DNA from: Myxococcales bacterium
Lineage (GTDB): Bacteria; Myxococcota; Myxococcia; Myxococcales; 40CM-4-68-19
Assembly: GCA_020201435.1 (NCBI GenBank)
Contig: JAIVGS010000005.1
Coordinates: forward strand, 1-35,317
Direction of reading: 5' to 3'
Length of the DNA stretch: 35,317 bases
The position numbers and the translations under genes were made by a program. Positions within the stretch are counted from its first letter, which is position 1. Each line of letters opens with the position of its first letter. This document shows positions 18,347 to 25,951 of this stretch, piece by piece. Under the pieces are notes generated by a model that saw nothing but the letters and a program-made list of their open reading frames with translations, did not search any database and was not told the DNA's origin.

Positions 18347-20116
18347 ATGACGGCACCCGGAACGCTCCACGGAGTCGCTGCGTCTTCTGGCATCGCCATC
18401 GGCCGGGCGCGCGTGCTGGTTCCGCCCGTCGACGTCGTCGATCGGCGGATTGCGCGGGACGCCGTGCCCGCCGAGGTCGCGCGGCTCCGCGAGGCGGTGG
18501 CCGCTACCGACGCCCAACTCTCGGTGCTCTCGGCCCGGCTGGACGGCGAGCACCTGCACGAGGGACATCTCATCCTCGAAGCGCACCGCATGATGCTGCG
18601 GGACGACGAGGTGGTGGAGGGCGCGCGGCGCCTGATCGAGGGAGATGGCCTCGCGGCCGAGTGCGCCGTGCGCAGGGTCATCGACGCCATCTGCGCCAGG
18701 TTCGCGAGCATCGAGGACGCATACCTGCGGGAACGCGGCGCGGATGTCGAGGCGATCGGCGAGCGACTCCTGCGGACGCTGCTCGGCTTGCCGGAGCTGT
18801 CGTCCGGCGCGTCGGCTGACGGCACCATCGGCGTCGGCCACACGTTGTCGCCGATCGATGCGCTGCACCTGCCGCGCTCCGGGCTCGCGGGCTTCGCGGC
18901 CGAGCACGGCGGCAAGACCTCGCACGCGGCCATCATCCTCCAGGCGCTCGGAATCCCCTTCGTCGTCGGCGTGCGCGGCCTGTTGTCGGCGGTCCAGCCG
19001 GGCGACACGCTGGTCGTGGACGGCTCGCGCGGCGAGGTCATCGTCAGGCCCGACGCAGCCACCCTCGCAATCTGCGAGGAGCGCCGCAGCCGCGAGCGTG
19101 CGCGCGCGCTGGCGCTGAAGTCCCGCGTGATGGGTCCGACCGTCACCCGCGACGGGGTGCGGATCGAGCTGGCCGCGAACATCGAGGCTCCCTCCGAGGT
19201 GGCGGACGCGCTCGAACTCGGCGCCGAGTCCGTCGGACTGTTCCGCACCGAGCTGCTCTACCTCGATCGGCCGGAGCTTCCCGGCGAAGAGGAGCAGTTC
19301 CAGGACGCGGTCGCGGTCCTCGTTGCGCTGGGCGGGCGGCCGGCAACCTTCCGCACGCTCGACGTCGGAGGCGAAAAGCTGCCCCTGGCGATCACGGTGG
19401 CCGGTGGCGCCAATCCGAGCCTTGGGGTGCGGGCGATCCGCTTCTCGCGACGCCGCCCGGACGTCTTCCGGACGCAGATGCGCGCGCTCTACCGCGCCTC
19501 CGCAGCGGGCCCGCTACGCATCATGTTCCCGCTCGTGTCGGGGATCACCGAACTGCACGAGGCCCGGCGAGCCTGCGCGGCGATCGCAGACGAGCTGGCG
19601 GGGGAGGGCATGGCTTTCACCGGCGAGGTCCCGATCGGCGTGATGATCGAGACTCCCAGCGCCGCGCTGACGACGGATCATCTGGCCGGGCAGGCGAGCT
19701 TCTTCAGCATCGGAACCAACGACCTCATCCAGTACACCTTCGCGGCGGATCGCGAGAACGAGGAAGTCGAGTACCTCTACCACCCGCTCCATCCCGCTTT
19801 GCTACGATTGCTCAAGAGCGCCATCGATGGCGCTCGCAGCGCAAACCGGCCGATCGCCGTTTGCGGGGACATGGCCGGAGATCCGGCGTTCACCTGGGTG
19901 CTCGTCGGGCTGGGGGTGCGGAGCCTCTCGATGTCGCCGCGCTTCATTCCCGCGGTCCGGTCGATCATCGCCGACAGCACGCTCGCGGAGATGGAGGCCA
20001 TGGTCGCGCAGGCGCTCTCGCTCCGCTCCGAGACCGAAGTCGAGGGCCTGGTGCTGGAGATGATGTCCCGGCGGTTCCCGCTGGTCTTCGGCACGCCGTC
20101 CGTCATTCCGGCGTGA
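18347..20116 (+). CDS. ptsI: Phosphoenolpyruvate-protein phosphotransferase (PTS enzyme I), 589 aa
   Basis: This enzyme takes phosphate from PEP onto a histidine and passes it to HPr in the cytoplasm. Seen: an N-terminal HPr-binding helical region (about 5-150, LHGVAASSGIAIGRA at the start). The swivelling phosphohistidine domain has EHGGKTSHAAII (His193). The PEP-binding barrel has ELAANIEAPSE, SVGLFRTELLYLD, GVRAIRF, GVMIETPSA, FFSIGTNDLIQYTFAADREN and AVCGDMAGDP with the acid/base Cys506. Length and all motifs are typical of an active enzyme. ATG 18347 is preferred on alignment with the family start. GGAG at 18329 is too close to the GTG at 18335 and rather far from this ATG, so the start is not certain. 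No HPr or permease gene is nearby. It converges with hsp20 across a hairpin. Confidence 0.93.
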   Translation: MTAPGTLHGVAASSGIAIGRARVLVPPVDVVDRRIARDAVPAEVARLREAVAATDAQLSVLSARLDGEHLHEGHLILEAHRMMLRDDEVVEGARRLIEGDGLAAECAVRRVIDAICARFASIEDAYLRERGADVEAIGERLLRTLLGLPELSSGASADGTIGVGHTLSPIDALHLPRSGLAGFAAEHGGKTSHAAIILQALGIPFVVGVRGLLSAVQPGDTLVVDGSRGEVIVRPDAATLAICEERRSRERARALALKSRVMGPTVTRDGVRIELAANIEAPSEVADALELGAESVGLFRTELLYLDRPELPGEEEQFQDAVAVLVALGGRPATFRTLDVGGEKLPLAITVAGGANPSLGVRAIRFSRRRPDVFRTQMRALYRASAAGPLRIMFPLVSGITELHEARRACAAIADELAGEGMAFTGEVPIGVMIETPSAALTTDHLAGQASFFSIGTNDLIQYTFAADRENEEVEYLYHPLHPALLRLLKSAIDGARSANRPIAVCGDMAGDPAFTWVLVGLGVRSLSMSPRFIPAVRSIIADSTLAEMEAMVAQALSLRSETEVEGLVLEMMSRRFPLVFGTPSVIPA

Positions 20117-20141
20117 AGGTTGCGCGGGTCCCCCGCAACCT
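20117..20141. terminator. Hairpin between convergent ptsI and hsp20
   Basis: AGGTTGCG (20117-20124) pairs with CGCAACCT (20134-20141) immediately after the ptsI stop. The inner loop is GC-rich. Being symmetrical, it could end transcripts from both sides. There is no T-run on either strand. Confidence 0.5.
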
Positions 20142-20160
20142 CCACGCTGATGCGGAAGCG

Positions 20161-20640
20161 CTATTGCTTCTGCGGCCGTCCGACGACCGGGTCGGTCTGG
20201 ACCTTGATCTGGCGCGGCTTCGTCTCCGCCTTCTTGGGAAGGAAGATGCGCACGACGCCGTCGCGGCTCGACGCGGTGATCTGCTCCATTTCCACCGTGG
20301 AAGGCAGCGTGAAGGTGCGGGCGAAGCTTCCATGGTACCGCTCGATCCGGTGATAGCCCTCTCGCTTGTCGGCCTGCTCGAGCTTGCGTTCGCCGCGCAA
20401 CTTCAGCGCGTTGCCCTCGATCTGGATCTCCACGTCGCTCGCGTCCACCTCGGGCAGGTCGAGCTTCAGCGTGATGCCGTCGCTGTCCTCGAAGACGTCT
20501 GCCAGCGGGGACCACGTGCCGGCGGCCTGCTCCGTCTGCTCCACTTCGGCGGCGCCGTAGGACTGCTCGAGGTTCTGGTGGAAGAGCTGGTGCTGCAGCT
20601 GCATCAACTCACGAAATGGGTCATAGCGAATCATGGCCAT
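20161..20640 (-). CDS. Small heat-shock protein, Hsp20/alpha-crystallin family, 159 aa
   Basis: This is an ATP-independent chaperone that holds unfolding proteins. Seen: the N-terminal arm MAMIRYDPFRELMQLQHQLF is typical of the bacterial family. The alpha-crystallin domain at about 45-140 has PLADVFEDSDGITLKLDLPE, VEIQIEGNALKLRGERK, the dimerising loop segment YHRIERYHGSFARTFTLP, and the family signature DGVVRIFLPKKAE. A short tail with IKV (I-x-V) can dock on neighbouring subunits. GGGGAGG 6 bases before the ATG at 20640 fixes the start over the ATG two codons later. No CIRCE element was found upstream. It is convergent with ptsI. Confidence 0.95.
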   Translation of the reverse strand: MAMIRYDPFRELMQLQHQLFHQNLEQSYGAAEVEQTEQAAGTWSPLADVFEDSDGITLKLDLPEVDASDVEIQIEGNALKLRGERKLEQADKREGYHRIERYHGSFARTFTLPSTVEMEQITASSRDGVVRIFLPKKAETKPRQIKVQTDPVVGRPQKQ

Positions 20641-20986
20641 ACGAGCCTCCCCGCTGTGCGAGCGCCTCGATCGGCGCAGGAGAGGTCATCGACCGATCCA
20701 CAACCTCCAGCGGGAGCCAACGTAACCACCGCCGAGCGCTCGTCAAGCAAGCGTCACCGCGATCTGGTCGCCTCCAAGCTGCCCGGCGAACCGGGGCCTC
20801 TTGTCCGCCGCCTCGCACAGTCTTCGAGGAGCCGGTGATCGCGAGGAAATCCGGCGACGCCAAATCGCGCCGAGGCACGAGCGCGCGCTCCTCACTCAGT
20901 CGCCCTTGCGTGATACAATCTCACCAGAACTTTCAGCGGACCTGGAGTTTTGAACGAGGGTCCGCGTCTGACGAGATAGGCGGAAG
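20641..20986. other. Divergent intergenic region between hsp20 and the KaiC operon
   Basis: About 346 bases with no supported gene. It must hold the hsp20 promoter (minus) and the operon promoter (plus, see 20909-20917). No CIRCE, no CRISPR-like repeat and no tRNA were seen. Confidence 0.5.
20909..20917 (+). promoter_or_regulatory. Extended -10 promoter of the KaiC-like operon
   Basis: TGATACAAT combines an extended -10 TG with TACAAT, about 70 bases before the ATG at 20987. Extended -10 promoters need little or no -35, and none is evident. Confidence 0.5.
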
Positions 20987-21406
20987 ATGGGCGGTGTCGC
21001 GGGCAGCGGACCATCGGGAGTCCCCGATGCGAGCGCCGAGATGCGTGGCGCTGCGCTGTTCAAGCTGATCTGGGATTGCATTGCAGACGTTCTCGGCACC
21101 ACCGCCGCGGCCACGCTGGTGCGGCGCGCTACGCGACGGGCAATGCTCCGCAGTCCGGAGCTCGGCGACCTCCAGGTCTTGCGCACCGACGGAGGATACA
21201 CTTACGCGCTGCCGCGCGCTCTCGTCGGGAGGGTCGAGCACACGCCGACCGCGCTGCGCGAGCTCTTCGGCGAACTGCGCCCGCTGCTGCTGGAGCTCGG
21301 CGGGAACCTGGTCGTTCGCCGCATCGAGCAGAACCCTTGGCTTCAGGAGCGGGGAATCGTCCTTCCATCCCCGAGGATCAGTGACCAAGATCCAATCCAA
21401 CCTTGA
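20987..21406 (+). CDS. Unrecognised 139-aa partner of the KaiC-like ATPase
   Basis: Seen: ALFKLIWDCIADVLGTTAAA, TLVRRATRRAMLRSPELGDL, QVLRTDGGYTYALPRALVGR and LGGNLVVRRIEQNPWLQ. These point to a helical, soluble protein of one compact domain with no membrane segment. I do not recognise a named family. It is not KaiA or KaiB. Its last 26 bases overlap the start of the KaiC-like gene at 21381, so the two are almost certainly co-translated and probably act together, for instance as a regulator or adaptor of the ATPase. The ATG at 20987 has a weak G-rich site (GGCGGAAG). An ATG at 21040 would give a shorter protein that still contains the conserved-looking part. Confidence 0.7.
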   Translation: MGGVAGSGPSGVPDASAEMRGAALFKLIWDCIADVLGTTAAATLVRRATRRAMLRSPELGDLQVLRTDGGYTYALPRALVGRVEHTPTALRELFGELRPLLLELGGNLVVRRIEQNPWLQERGIVLPSPRISDQDPIQP

Positions 21407-22841
21407 GCTCCTCGCGACCGGCAGCCCCGACCTCGATCGCATCCTCGGAGGGGGGCTCCCAGCGCGATCCATCAACCTGGTCGCCGGCCAGCCGGGCACC
21501 GGGAAGACCCTGCTTGCGCTCCAGATCATCTTCCATCTGGCCCGGCAGGGCCGGAAGTGCCTTTACCTGACCACGCTCTCCGAGCCGGCGTTGAAGCTGG
21601 TCGGATACATGCGGCAATTCTCCTTCTTCGAGAATGGCCTGGTCGGTCAAAAGGTCGTTTTCGCGGACATCGGATCGGTGGTCAGGGGCAAGAGCGAGGA
21701 CGCGATCCTGACCGAAATCACCGCGCTGGTAGAGCGCGAGGAACCGGCGGTCGTCGTCATCGACAGCTTCAAGGCCGTTCGCGAGATGGTCGCGGAGCCA
21801 GCGGTTCGGACCTTCGTGTACGATCTCGCGGTCCAGATCGCAGGCTGGGGAGCGGCGAGCCTGCTGGTCGGCGAATACTCCGAGGCGGAGATCGCGACCC
21901 ACTCCGAATTTGCCATCGCGGACGGCATCATCCGCTTGATCAATCGACATCACGAGCTGATCGCAGTACGCGAAATCGAGGTCGTGAAGCTGCGCGGCGC
22001 CGACTACGTGACGGGCCATCACTTCTTCGAGATCGGCACCGCCGGACTGACGTTCTTTCCGCGGGTGCGCAGCCCGGATGCGGCCGACAGTGGGGAGATC
22101 GCTCCCAGCGAGCGCGTACCCACGGGGGTCGCCGGTCTCGACGCCATGCTGGGCGGCGGCCTGCCGCGCGCGAGCGCGACCGTGGTCCAGGGCGGGACGG
22201 GGACCGGGAAGACCGTTCTCGCGCTCCATTTTCTCCTCGAGGGGGCGCGGCGCGGCGAACCGGGGATCCACTTCACCCTGGAGGAGACGCCGGACCAGCT
22301 CCGCGGCATCGCCCACGGTTTTGGCTGGGATCTCCGCGCGCTCGAAAAGCGCAAGCTCCTGACCCTGGCCTACGTCTCGCCTGTCGAGCTCTCGACCGAC
22401 ACTTTCCTCAATCGGGCGCGCGAGCAGGTAGAGCGGCTCGGGGCGCGGCGCGTGGTCCTCGACAGCCTCACCAGCATGGCGATCGGCGTCCTTTCCGAGC
22501 GGCGCTTCAAAGAGCTCGTCTACGCGATGACGAAGCACTTCCGCGTCCTGGGAGTCACGCTCCAGATGAACATGGAGATCGCCGAATTGCTCGGCTCGGC
22601 GCAGATCTCAGGATACGGCGTCTCGTTCGCCGCCGACAATGTGATCCAGCTCAAGTACGTCGAAGTGAGCGGTGGACTCGACCGCGGCATCCTGGTCTTG
22701 AAGGCCCGCGGGGTGCGGCACGCCACCGAAGTGCGCGCGATGAGCCTGGGAGCGGACGGAATCAAGGTCGGATCGCGGTTCCACGGCGCGCGCGGGATAC
22801 TGTCGGGACTGCCGATCAATTCTTCCCGGAAGAAGCGCTGA
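21381..22841 (+). CDS. KaiC-like ATPase with two RecA-fold domains, 486 aa
   Basis: Seen: domain 1 (about 1-230) has SPDLDRILGGGLP, Walker A GQPGTGKT and Walker B VVVIDS. Domain 2 (about 245-486) has GVAGLDAMLGGGLP, Walker A GGTGTGKT and Walker B RVVLDS. The paired catalytic glutamates of KaiC are kept in domain 2 (HFTLEETPDQL). In domain 1 the matching place reads LYLTTLSEPALKL, so the pair is lost. In cyanobacterial KaiC the second domain carries phosphorylated Ser/Thr in a TITDT-type stretch; here it reads VSFAADN, so clock-type autophosphorylation looks unlikely. Known: such KaiC-like proteins outside cyanobacteria act in signalling and stress in forms not well defined. The GTG at 21381 has GAGG 5 bases before it and lies inside the partner gene. 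Confidence 0.9.
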   Translation: MTKIQSNLELLATGSPDLDRILGGGLPARSINLVAGQPGTGKTLLALQIIFHLARQGRKCLYLTTLSEPALKLVGYMRQFSFFENGLVGQKVVFADIGSVVRGKSEDAILTEITALVEREEPAVVVIDSFKAVREMVAEPAVRTFVYDLAVQIAGWGAASLLVGEYSEAEIATHSEFAIADGIIRLINRHHELIAVREIEVVKLRGADYVTGHHFFEIGTAGLTFFPRVRSPDAADSGEIAPSERVPTGVAGLDAMLGGGLPRASATVVQGGTGTGKTVLALHFLLEGARRGEPGIHFTLEETPDQLRGIAHGFGWDLRALEKRKLLTLAYVSPVELSTDTFLNRAREQVERLGARRVVLDSLTSMAIGVLSERRFKELVYAMTKHFRVLGVTLQMNMEIAELLGSAQISGYGVSFAADNVIQLKYVEVSGGLDRGILVLKARGVRHATEVRAMSLGADGIKVGSRFHGARGILSGLPINSSRKKR

Positions 22842-23004
22842 CCTTGGGCGCGAGCACGATCCCGACGTGGAACGTGCTCCCGTCGCCCGCGACGCCGGTC
22901 GAGTCGACCCAGATCTTGCCGCTGTGCAGGTCGACGATGCCGCGAACCGCCGGCGAGTACCGGACCGGATTTGCGATCAGGTTGGTGAGCATCTGGTCGC
23001 TGCC
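22816..23004 (-). pseudogene. Histidine kinase C-terminal scar with internal deletion
   Basis: Seen on the minus strand: SDQMLTNLIANPVRYSP, an N-box, runs directly into AVRGIVDLHSGKIWVDSTG and STFHVGIVLAP, the end of an HATPase domain. The stretch between them (G1, F and G2 boxes, about 60 residues) is missing, and everything before the N-box is absent. Its end overlaps the KaiC-like stop by 26 bases on the other strand. Its front merges with the tail of the YihY gene. It cannot bind ATP. Confidence 0.75.
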
Positions 23005-23861
23005 GTTGGGTACTCGCGAGGATGCCCATCGTCGGGTGGACGCCGGAGCACGGCGTTGACCTCGGCCCCCAGCATCAAAGCAAGCGAGGAAAGCCACATC
23101 CAGACGAGGAGGATGACGATCCCTCCCAAGGCACCGTAGGTGATTCCGAAATTGCCGAACTGAGAAACGTAGAACGAGAACACCAGCGTTGCGGCGAGCC
23201 AGCCGATCACTCCCGCGACCGAACCGGGCATGATCAATCGGACCGTCTGCGTCACGTTCGGGAGAACGTAGTAGATCGTCGCCCAGACGATCATCATGAG
23301 AAATGTCGCCACCGGCAACCGTAGCCAACCGACGAGTGGCTGCCATGAAGCCCCCAGCTGCCGCGCGGCGATCGGGACGACCACGGCCAAGAGGGCGGCC
23401 AGCAAAGCCAGAAGGGTTGCGCCCAGCATGACCGCGAACGCCATCGTGTAGACCTTCCACCGCGGACGCCGCTCGGACACCCCGTATGCGGAGTTGAGGG
23501 CCGTCACGAGGCTGGTGACACCCGTCGTCGATGACCACACGGCCGCAAGCGCGCTGAAGGTCAGCACGCCCACGCGCGGGCGCGAGGTGAGCTCCCCGAG
23601 CCTCGCAAGGAGGATGGGCGCCAGGGCCGGCGGCGTATCCCGCGCCAAAGCGTCGCCCAGCGCCTGCACTTGCTCTGGCCGGATGATCAGACTCGCCGCT
23701 GCCACGATAAAGAGAACGAACGGAAACAGCGCGAGGATGCCGTAAAACGTGAGAGCGGCGGCGGCGTCCGTCAGCTTGTTGGCTGCCCACTCACGCCTCA
23801 GCGCGCGCACGAAGCTACGCCATTTTTTCGGTTTCGCGATGTTTGAAGGCGTCGTGTCCAT
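22977..23861 (-). CDS. YihY/BrkB-family inner-membrane protein, 294 aa
   Basis: Seen: ATG at 23861 (MDTTPSNIAKPKKW). The cytoplasmic N-terminus leads to the family hallmark TDAAAALTFYGILALFPFVL. Five more hydrophobic segments follow, including VYTMAFAVMLGATLLALLAA, LPVATFLMMIVWATIYYVLP and LGGIVILLVWMWLSSLALML, ending in GAEVNAVLRR. This is the six-helix layout of the YihY/BrkB family, once misnamed ribonuclease BN; its transport role is not settled. The last dozen residues (EYPTAATRCSPT) are read out of the histidine kinase scar, so the native C-terminus has probably been replaced. The ribosome site is weak. It runs in the same direction as the upstream two-component genes but is about 100 bases from them. 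Confidence 0.88.
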   Translation of the reverse strand: MDTTPSNIAKPKKWRSFVRALRREWAANKLTDAAAALTFYGILALFPFVLFIVAAASLIIRPEQVQALGDALARDTPPALAPILLARLGELTSRPRVGVLTFSALAAVWSSTTGVTSLVTALNSAYGVSERRPRWKVYTMAFAVMLGATLLALLAALLAVVVPIAARQLGASWQPLVGWLRLPVATFLMMIVWATIYYVLPNVTQTVRLIMPGSVAGVIGWLAATLVFSFYVSQFGNFGITYGALGGIVILLVWMWLSSLALMLGAEVNAVLRRPPDDGHPREYPTAATRCSPT

Positions 23862-23964: not shown

Positions 23965-24369
23965 TCACGCCGGCAAGCCGTGCGCGACGTCTGTCTCGAC
24001 GAGGGCGAGCAGCTCTTCCATGGCGAAGGGCTTCTGCAAGATTCGCGCGCGAGCGGGAAAAGTAAGGCCATTTCGGATCGTCAACAGCACTATCACTGCC
24101 GCGCGCGAAAGCACCACATCGTCGTCGAGCGCCACGTGCAGCGTTGCCCAGTCCGGGTCGGCCTCTCCGGCTCCCAGGGCCAGCACGAACGCGTCTGGCT
24201 GAGGGTTCACGCTGCTCCGCCAGGCCAGCACTGCGGCGCAATCCGCGACGCACTCCACCCGGTGACCCTCGAGCAAGAGCGACGTGCAGATCACGGCGCG
24301 CAAGTCCACATCGGATTCCATCACCAGCGCGAAGCCCGGTGGCCCTGGACTCTTGTTGATCGTGCGCAT
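23965..24369 (-). CDS. Atypical receiver (pseudo-receiver) protein, 134 aa
   Basis: Seen: a stand-alone receiver fold with GFALVMESDVDLRAVICTSL at strand 1, PDAFVLAL at strand 3, AVIVLLTIRN with Thr97 at strand 4, and ILQKPFAMEELLALV with the conserved Lys113-Pro at strand 5. The phospho-acceptor Asp, expected at the seventh position of P-D-x4-D, is Ala64. It therefore cannot be phosphorylated in the usual way. There is no output domain. GGAAGG precedes the ATG at 24369. It starts 38 bases after the histidine kinase stop, on the same strand, so the two form an operon. It could bind the kinase as a non-phosphorylated inhibitor or adaptor (inference). Confidence 0.72.
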   Translation of the reverse strand: MRTINKSPGPPGFALVMESDVDLRAVICTSLLLEGHRVECVADCAAVLAWRSSVNPQPDAFVLALGAGEADPDWATLHVALDDDVVLSRAAVIVLLTIRNGLTFPARARILQKPFAMEELLALVETDVAHGLPA

Positions 24370-24406: not shown

Positions 24407-25951
24407 CTACGGCCCCTTGCTCGGTCCCGATCTGAGCAACTGAATGGTGAACGTCGTGCCGCTCTCCGCGGCAGAATCCGCGAAGGCCACGCCGCCGTGC
24501 GCTTCCGCGATCTGCGCGACGATGAAAAGGCCCAGGCCCAAACCATGCTGCCGCTCGGTCGACTCGCCCCGGATACCGCGGCGATAGGCCCTGAAGAGCT
24601 CCGGCAGCACATCGGCCGGAATGACTGCGCCTCCATTGTGGACCTTGATCTCGACGCTGTGCGCCGCCGATGCGATGGATTGTACGCGCACCGGGGCGGT
24701 GCCGCCATACTGGATCGCATTGGTGATCAGATTGATCAGGGCCTGCTCGATGCGGTCGGCGTCCCAGGAGCCGGTGGCGTCGCCGGCCGTTTCGAGCTCG
24801 ATGGTGTTCGCTGGATAGGCGCGGCGGCACTCGTCGACCGCGTCGTGGCAGATGGCGTGGAGATCCGCCCGGGCGAGAACGATGGGCAAGCCGCCCGGTG
24901 TGCGCGTGCGCGCGTAGTCGAGCAGGTCGCTGATCAGCCTGGCCATCCGCGCCGCGCTGCGCGCCACACGGTCCAGCGATTCCACCGACGACGGCGTCAG
25001 CCCTGGCTGGCGGCGCAGCAGGCTGACGGAGCCGGCGATGGTCGCCAGCGGATTGCGCAGATCGTGCCCCACGATGGCGATGATCTGCTGCTGGAAGTCC
25101 AGATTCGAGCGCGACACTTCCAGATCGTGCTGTTCGCGAGTGACGTCGTGCAGCGCGACGACCACGTCCTCGACCTTGCCATGAACGTTCCGCAAGGAGG
25201 TAACATCCGCGATCAGCGCTGCGCGCCCTGCGTCGGTCTCCACGTGAAGCTCGCCTCGAAACAGCCCGGGCTGCGCGAGCGCGTGCGTCAGGAGCGCAGA
25301 GGCGTCTCGGCCGGCACTGCCGTCGGCGCACCACCAGCGCTGATCCTGGATCTGAGCTCCCGCCAGCGCCTTGCGAGGGTGACCCAGGATGCGTTCCGCG
25401 GCCTGGTTGACGAGCTTGATCCGCCCGGTCGGCCCGACCACCAGCAACCCATCCTGGACGGACTCGATCAGTCGCGAAAGCGCGTACTCCTTTGCGGTCG
25501 CATCGGCCAGAAGGTCGGCGATCAGACGGTTCGCTACCTCGACCGCCCGGAAGGCATCGCGCTGATCGGTCACGTCCACGGCCACGATGCCGACGCCGAT
25601 CGGTTGCCGGTCGCTCGGGCGAAGCACGGGATGTAGCTTGACGAGAACGCACCGGCCGGAGAGCGTGAATTCGACGTCCTGCGCGTCTCCGAAAATCGAC
25701 TGGCGCAAGCCCTCCGCGAACGCATCCGGCAGGCGCGCGAGGATATCATCGCTCGTGTAATGCGCGTCGACGGACAATCCATCGAAGCGGGCAAGCGCCT
25801 CGTTGACGCGGACGAAGCGCAGGTGCGCGTCGCAGAATCCCAAGCCCACGGGAACGTCCCAGACGGCGTCGAGGAAGCTCCACGCGGCTTCCTCCGCTTC
25901 GTGGGAAGAGGAGGGCACGACAGACAAGTTGCGCTGGCCGAACGGCTCCAT
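24407..25951 (-). CDS. PAS-domain sensor histidine kinase, soluble, 514 aa
   Basis: Seen: two PAS-like regions at about 22-130 (VPVGLGFCDAHLRFVRVNEA) and 157-275 (SVQDGLLVVGPTGRIKLVNQ). A coiled linker leads to the H-box QQIIAIVGHDLRNPLATIAG with His296. The ATPase domain has the N-box ALINLITNAIQYGG (Asn411), HNGGAVIPADVLPELF (the G1 position is degenerate, with N-G-G in place of D-x-G), the G2 box GLGLGLFIVAQIAEAHGG, and SGTTFTIQL at the end. No membrane helix is present, so it senses a cytoplasmic or ligand signal. The ATG at 25951 lies just downstream of a perfect TATAAT. Its partner downstream is a receiver without a phospho-Asp, so the true phosphate acceptor, if any, lies elsewhere. 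Confidence 0.92.
   Translation of the reverse strand: MEPFGQRNLSVVPSSSHEAEEAAWSFLDAVWDVPVGLGFCDAHLRFVRVNEALARFDGLSVDAHYTSDDILARLPDAFAEGLRQSIFGDAQDVEFTLSGRCVLVKLHPVLRPSDRQPIGVGIVAVDVTDQRDAFRAVEVANRLIADLLADATAKEYALSRLIESVQDGLLVVGPTGRIKLVNQAAERILGHPRKALAGAQIQDQRWWCADGSAGRDASALLTHALAQPGLFRGELHVETDAGRAALIADVTSLRNVHGKVEDVVVALHDVTREQHDLEVSRSNLDFQQQIIAIVGHDLRNPLATIAGSVSLLRRQPGLTPSSVESLDRVARSAARMARLISDLLDYARTRTPGGLPIVLARADLHAICHDAVDECRRAYPANTIELETAGDATGSWDADRIEQALINLITNAIQYGGTAPVRVQSIASAAHSVEIKVHNGGAVIPADVLPELFRAYRRGIRGESTERQHGLGLGLFIVAQIAEAHGGVAFADSAAESGTTFTIQLLRSGPSKGP

Follow-up and report, generated by a model that had tools for sequence, protein, structure and literature searches.

A small-protein family encoded upstream of KaiC-like ATPases and of histidine kinases in Myxococcota

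In the 35,317-nt stretch of a Myxococcales genome analysed here (the window), the gene of a small protein overlaps the start of a gene for a two-domain KaiC-like ATPase, and relatives of the small protein were found before other KaiC genes of the same class and before, or fused to, histidine kinases. The reading which we prefer, with a probability of roughly 0.6, is that the pair represents an input subunit and a KaiC-ring hub, together the first half of a modular signalling pathway other than the clock. The pair looks like a reusable signalling switch, the input part of which has been uncatalogued until now, and the KaiC, a relative of the bacterial clock protein, is probably not a clock. KaiC operons as such are of a known kind; the new part is the partner family, its specificity for one KaiC class and its pairing with kinases. 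KaiC-like genes are common in clock-less bacteria; their likeliest input subunit is a partner whose gene precedes that of KaiC and elsewhere precedes, or is fused to, that of a histidine kinase.

The gene pair and the motifs of the ATPase

The coordinates of the features are collected in Table 1. The overlap of the small frame with the KaiC-like gene is 26 nt, as had been reported from the sequence alone, and is borne out by the coordinates of the two reading frames. The small frame was not picked in the window by a crude codon-usage gene finder; despite this miss, sequence comparison indicates that it is a real gene. Its dN/dS was 0.32-0.40 among three related genomes (0.13-0.15 for KaiC), the other two frames showed no such pattern in the same three genomes, and homologues occupy the same place in other genera. 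The extended -10 promoter which the two genes had been said to share may be represented by TGATACAAT, the sole TGNTAYAAT of the window, where 0.05 would be expected. Scanning 20600-23100 for two-hexamer promoters, however, gave no -35/-10 pair, and the element is therefore kept only as a lead.

Table 1. Positions of the features described in the text (window coordinates, except for the last row, in which the loci are named)
Feature	Position	Strand	Remarks
PTS enzyme I-like gene	18347..20116	+	PF02896, PF05524, PF00391; 77% identity to L093g3
Hsp20 chaperone gene	20161..20640	-	PF00011; 70% identity to L093g8
Extended -10-like TGATACAAT, candidate promoter	20911..20919	+	lead only
Small partner gene	20987..21406	+	139 aa, ATG start; homologues elsewhere; dN/dS in relatives
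KaiC-like two-domain ATPase gene	21381..22841	+	486 aa, GTG start; PF06745 twice
Walker A, domain 1, GQPGTGKT, residues 36-43	21486..21509	+	
Disrupted catalytic Glu pair of domain 1, S67-E68	21579..21584	+	
Walker A, domain 2, GGTGTGKT, residues 271-278	22191..22214	+	
Domain 2 catalytic Glu pair E301-E302	22281..22286	+	
S415-F416, equivalents of clock KaiC S431-T432	22623..22628	+	alignment to solved KaiC
Receivers in the slot before KaiC	L094 5397-5777; L095 8842-9300; L096 5491-5862; L101 5513-5893; L023		

The two PF06745 stretches of the window KaiC scored 264.9 bits against a curated cut-off of 26.6, and both domains contain, besides Walker A, a K-x-R finger (KLR and KAR, respectively). 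It had been proposed that domain 1 lacks the catalytic Glu pair that domain 2 retains. The comparison with other KaiCs showed the change from EE to SE, domain 1 reading L66-S67-E68-P69 where clock KaiCs have F-E-E, and Ser or Gly occupies the first position in all 23 class-I rows of a 35-KaiC alignment; the second position (E68), however, is Glu in 35 of the 35 aligned KaiCs. This invariance means that domain 1 may also hydrolyse ATP; its pair is broken, and the one Glu that appears to be under constraint may serve. In domain 2 both Glu residues are present in 8/8 orthologues. Within the class-I rows the first Glu of this domain is kept in 19/23 and the second in 15/23 (two rows being incomplete copies), with Lys or Gln at the second position in six of the 23.

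The phosphorylation sites of clock KaiC had been described as replaced by AAD, and this assignment was found to be misaligned. In the alignment to solved KaiC, T426 corresponds to S410, S431 to S415, which is thus kept, and T432 to F416; the AAD motif lies one step further on, opposite I433-T434-D435. The Ser-Phe arrangement is present in all eight orthologues. In the wider class the S431 equivalent is often Ala, Glu or missing, so that phosphorylation at this place is no general feature of the module.

In a genome of the same genus (G005, locus L093) the enzyme-I and Hsp20 neighbours are common with the window region 18347-22841. The KaiC module between these shared neighbours belongs to another clade (36% identity) and has its own, different type of small protein, as if one KaiC module had been swapped for another in place. 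The Hsp20 neighbour hints at stress. On the minus strand, the stretch 22819-23115, which converges on the KaiC gene, has by eye, at 22819-23040, the appearance of a cut-short C-terminal end of a histidine kinase and gave no Pfam match. Two further minus-strand genes near the unit are candidate partners: a degenerate-looking, receiver-like frame (23965-24369) and a PAS-histidine kinase (24407-25951, Pfam).

A partner family before KaiC and before histidine kinases

When 145 genomes of the order were searched for KaiCs of the window type, eight full-length orthologues were obtained (that of the window itself and, at 55-67% identity to it, those of G029, G032, G008, G102, G096, G105 and G013), and a ninth, in G002, cut off at a contig end. 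Seven of the eight, the window included, have the small gene immediately before KaiC. The exception is G008, in which a C-terminal receiver domain is fused to the orthologous KaiC (62%) and the KaiC locus contains no small gene; the first contig scan had returned two KaiC loci, namely this record and a 3.7-kb contig devoid of the 5' side. With the small gene present at 7/8 orthologues, its absence beside most of them, which the sequence-only reading had named as a refutation of the unit, did not occur, and the neighbourhood survey agrees with the two-gene unit with a non-clock job put forward in the sequence-only reading, a partnership that extends to distant KaiCs. Single-sequence matches of the window small protein (P0001) in G027, G115 (C342) and G134 were on the strand opposite to called genes and were set aside as chance. 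A weak match in G108 contains an internal stop.

Less similar KaiCs were preceded by other reading frames of 130-160 aa, mostly with a 4-nt overlap with the KaiC start. The window type (A1) and two of the others (A2 and A3) constitute one family according to hhalign (E 3.3e-5, 6.8e-7 and 2.2e-4), none of 150 column-shuffled controls scoring as high for each pair. A joint profile, A4, composed of 14 rows with P0001 among them, matched the window at 20978-21379 (E 4.7e-41, P0001 itself being a row) and altogether 42 places in 37 of the 189 Myxococcota genomes. The next gene was KaiC at 28 places and a histidine kinase at 13, one place being at a contig end; thus each of the 41 readable next genes codes for a KaiC of class I or for a histidine kinase, in one case fused in frame. 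The kinase label was Pfam-tested in eight of the 13, and every one of the remaining five shares 73-95% identity with one of those eight over the part compared. The family gave no match to Pfam, NCBIfam or PDB sequences, and P0001 gave none at E 1 in Pfam or NCBIfam. Together with the literature, in the available text of which no account of the partner was found, this fits the module having been called little-described.

The fused case is found in G012 (L061 7400-9028), where a single 542-aa protein combines the small domain with a GAF-histidine kinase; in the sister genome G013 the small gene, KaiC and a GAF-kinase are three consecutive genes. In view of the histidine-kinase pairs and of the G012 fusion, the small protein may also be able to act on kinases where KaiC is lacking. 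The host genome itself (G000; 4.76 Mb, 363 contigs) has a second family member on contig C314 (L173 4505-4921), the gene of which overlaps that of a GAF-histidine kinase by 4 nt; its product might partner the window KaiC in trans. Beyond Myxococcota, 138-144-aa proteins annotated as hypothetical precede KaiC in four plasmid records, three from Caballeronia and one from Paracoccus. These pairs were located through KaiC, and the A2 profile, to which three of the four small proteins contributed a row, matches all of them; a direct search of plasmids with P0001 gave no match. Six other plasmid KaiCs, of other classes, have no member of the small family.

At five loci (Table 1) the small gene before KaiC is replaced by a receiver-domain protein. 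By eye these receivers have Glu or Gly in place of the phosphorylated Asp, and PF00072 was detected in two of the five. An Hsp20-looking gene is seen by eye near the slot receivers of L094 and L101. The gene that follows KaiC varies. A histidine kinase, Pfam-tested, follows class-I KaiC in L057 (a hybrid kinase-receiver), L060, L088, L091, L092, L093 and L100, and a histidine kinase is also found after KaiC in the receiver-type pairs L094, L095 and L101. A GGDEF-EAL protein follows in L089 and L097, and two of the Caballeronia plasmids carry a gene annotated as a diguanylate cyclase. In the window, G029 and G032 no such output gene stands directly after KaiC. As regards the composition of the unit, then, the pair proposed earlier was right, but the KaiC-less kinase pairs (13/41) and the frequent, variable third gene had been missed.

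The genes, their overlap and conserved order, their co-inheritance, the motifs and the KaiC-less and fused arrangements are observed; physical binding, the direction of regulation, the division of ATPase activity between the domains and the signal are inferred. The small protein would be an input (regulatory) subunit, made in step with KaiC through the translational overlap, and would bind to and act on the KaiC ring, an ATP-driven double-ring hub. Domain 1, in which the Glu pair is broken and both Walker A and the K-x-R finger are intact, would mainly hold ATP and the ring together, and domain 2, with the full pair, would do most of the turnover. A kinase, or an enzyme acting on cyclic-di-GMP, would read out the state of the ring, and in some lineages KaiC would be skipped, the small protein feeding a histidine kinase directly. 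The asymmetric ring with the small protein as its regulator, which the sequence-only reading had proposed, is likewise an inference.

The same tight gene overlap (-4 nt in most loci) and the Hsp20 gene adjoining the module in the window and in G005 would also suit a small protein that is translated together with KaiC or the kinase and serves solely as a chaperone or folding partner in their assembly, carrying no signal. We regard this as unlikely. One family serves both KaiC and histidine kinases, which have no fold need in common, and occurs in G012 as a fusion with a GAF-kinase; moreover, the slot of the small gene is filled at five loci by a receiver, a signalling domain. Conserved gene order could also stem from dosage rather than contact.

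It is tempting to go beyond an input subunit for this KaiC class and to speculate, at somewhat less than even odds, that the small protein is the founding member of an as yet uncatalogued family of signalling inputs, present in at least Myxococcota and Pseudomonadota, that docks on a KaiC ring or on a histidine kinase and is a third KaiC regulator beside KaiA and KaiB. If so, the small family would be a natural bridge from KaiC hubs to two-component systems, and the slot, since phosphorylation-dead receivers can occupy it, would correspond in function to KaiA.

Relation to the clock and to described KaiC contexts

The window KaiC scored 171 bits with the clock model TIGR02655 (cut-off 546.25) and 254.1 with NF006799 (cut-off 408). 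It differs from clock KaiC in these scores, in the Glu pair, which is not found in both domains, in the phosphosites, of which the S431 equivalent is kept and that of T432 is Phe, and in having no KaiB beside it. The host genome has two more two-domain KaiC genes, on contigs C138 and C180, and its sole KaiB match is on C138, not on C33. At about 5425-7364 of C138, on the minus strand, a KaiC with EE in both domains adjoins this KaiB, which represents a separate, clock-like pair. The window KaiC shares with this pair and with cyanobacterial KaiABC the two PF06745 stretches and, in both domains, Walker A and K-x-R; in contrast to the C138 KaiC, with EE twice and KaiB, it has SE in domain 1 and Ser-Phe, with KaiB not beside it. 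The KaiA model (PF07688) matched in none of the 189 genomes and was detected in the Synechococcus elongatus control. A clock was rejected as the main reading on four grounds, namely the scores with the clock models, the state of the Glu pair, the phosphosites and the location of KaiB.

A weaker form of the idea is a clock or hourglass timer in which the small protein replaces KaiA or KaiB and a daily or developmental cycle proceeds via phosphorylation of Ser415. KaiA is composed of a receiver-like N-terminal half and a helical half, and receivers are the rival occupants of the upstream slot, which would agree with a timer; so would the Ser at the S431 equivalent in 8/8 orthologues. However, the clock-model scores are far too low, the Ser is Ala, Glu or missing across much of the wider class, no KaiA was found and the KaiB of the host adjoins another paralogue, so that we consider a timer distinctly improbable. 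In support of it, the available text of a study of myxobacterial KaiC homologues (PMC11832031) cites work according to which a single Ser431 site is enough for a circadian period. Homology of the small protein to KaiA was also rejected, being without sequence support (no Pfam family at E 1). No KaiA chains were among the listed fold-search matches, an outcome compatible with either the presence or the absence of the KaiA C-terminal fold.

De Luca et al. (2011; PMC3164672) sorted bacterial KaiC contexts, in the sections available, by the genes after KaiC. The module resembles their third context, in which a KaiC with at most one phosphosite is followed by a receiver, a histidine kinase or a GGDEF/EAL protein. 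The upstream partner is unmentioned in the corresponding part of that source (section 17), and a supplementary legend contains 'HP' neighbours, which may include it. Relative to the available sections, the division by domain 1 motif, the small family and the KaiC-less kinase pairs are added here. The archaeal KaiC family, according to Makarova, Galperin and Koonin (2017), as cited in the accessible portion of PMC5847659, is a proposed hub joined to two-component parts, and inactivated copies are known; here, by comparison, the hub is bacterial, with a two- or three-domain KaiC and a dedicated small partner. For myxobacteria, PMC11832031 describes, as far as its accessible text goes, genomes with several copies of KaiC each, few of KaiB and none of KaiA, the KaiCs often having at most one phosphosite, and it treats KaiC alone, without an upstream partner. 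No account of the small partner was found in the accessible portions of the literature searched, including PMC11832031, PMC5520375, PMC5847659 and PMC3164672. A caution that follows is that annotations as 'circadian clock protein' in such genomes cover KaiC classes with different partners.

Co-inheritance and predicted fold

Among 37 class-I KaiC genes with a readable 5' side, 31 have the small gene, five a receiver-domain protein and one neither; the set includes three pairs found by hand (one in G138, two in G136), and its loci are best matches plus a hand-picked spread, hence a non-random sample. The small family was found in none of 30 loci of other KaiC classes (Myxococcota, G000 itself and plasmids), and was detected in 22/22 positive-control loci, many of which had contributed rows to the profile. 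On a tree of 45 KaiCs the label 'small' requires 3 changes, compared with a mean of 15.5 after shuffling. The distances between small proteins correlate with those between their KaiCs (r 0.95, 27 pairs), and within the clades r was 0.97 (7 pairs), 0.58 (7) and 0.96 (13). The two genes are therefore co-inherited; the correlation does not by itself indicate contact and does not separate co-evolution from shared descent. Mere hitch-hiking in the operon, with the small gene lying near signalling genes for its expression and its product working in another pathway, would account for the persistence of KaiC without the small gene in G008, but is very improbable, given that the correlation holds clade by clade and that every readable next gene (41/41) is KaiC or a histidine kinase, including one fusion.

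Single-sequence AlphaFold2 predicted for the small protein a helix hairpin, a beta hairpin and a second helix hairpin, with a mean pLDDT of 74 for the whole protein and of 82 for a core model (window 21035-21373). With both models, Foldseek gave no match at E <= 0.001 in PDB and viral structures. We give no fold name, because a helix bundle this small matches many things weakly. H-NOX chains came first in a second structure comparison (Z 5.7 and 5.3, 77 residues, rmsd 4.0 and 4.2), such Z values being common, and the A2-type profile scored 20.2 against the H-NOX N-terminus, the best of 100 shuffles reaching 19.2. That the small protein senses a gas or a ligand as a divergent H-NOX-like domain and feeds this into KaiC or a kinase is nevertheless extremely improbable: 5/100 and 24/100 shuffles scored as high as the window-type and C-type profiles, respectively, against myxococcal H-NOX, Foldseek had no match, and Pfam HNOB (PF07700) did not match the small protein. 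Homology to H-NOX was thus unsupported by two of the three profile types and borderline with the third.

Two minor observations concern the KaiC partner. The KaiC copies in L093, L096, L101 and L078 (the last on a plasmid) look split or frame-broken. L099 (4195-6339), L100 (3711-5876) and L123-L136 encode KaiC proteins of 714-741 aa in which the KaiC domain occurs three times, Pfam-tested in L099 and L100, and a gene of the small family precedes each of them.
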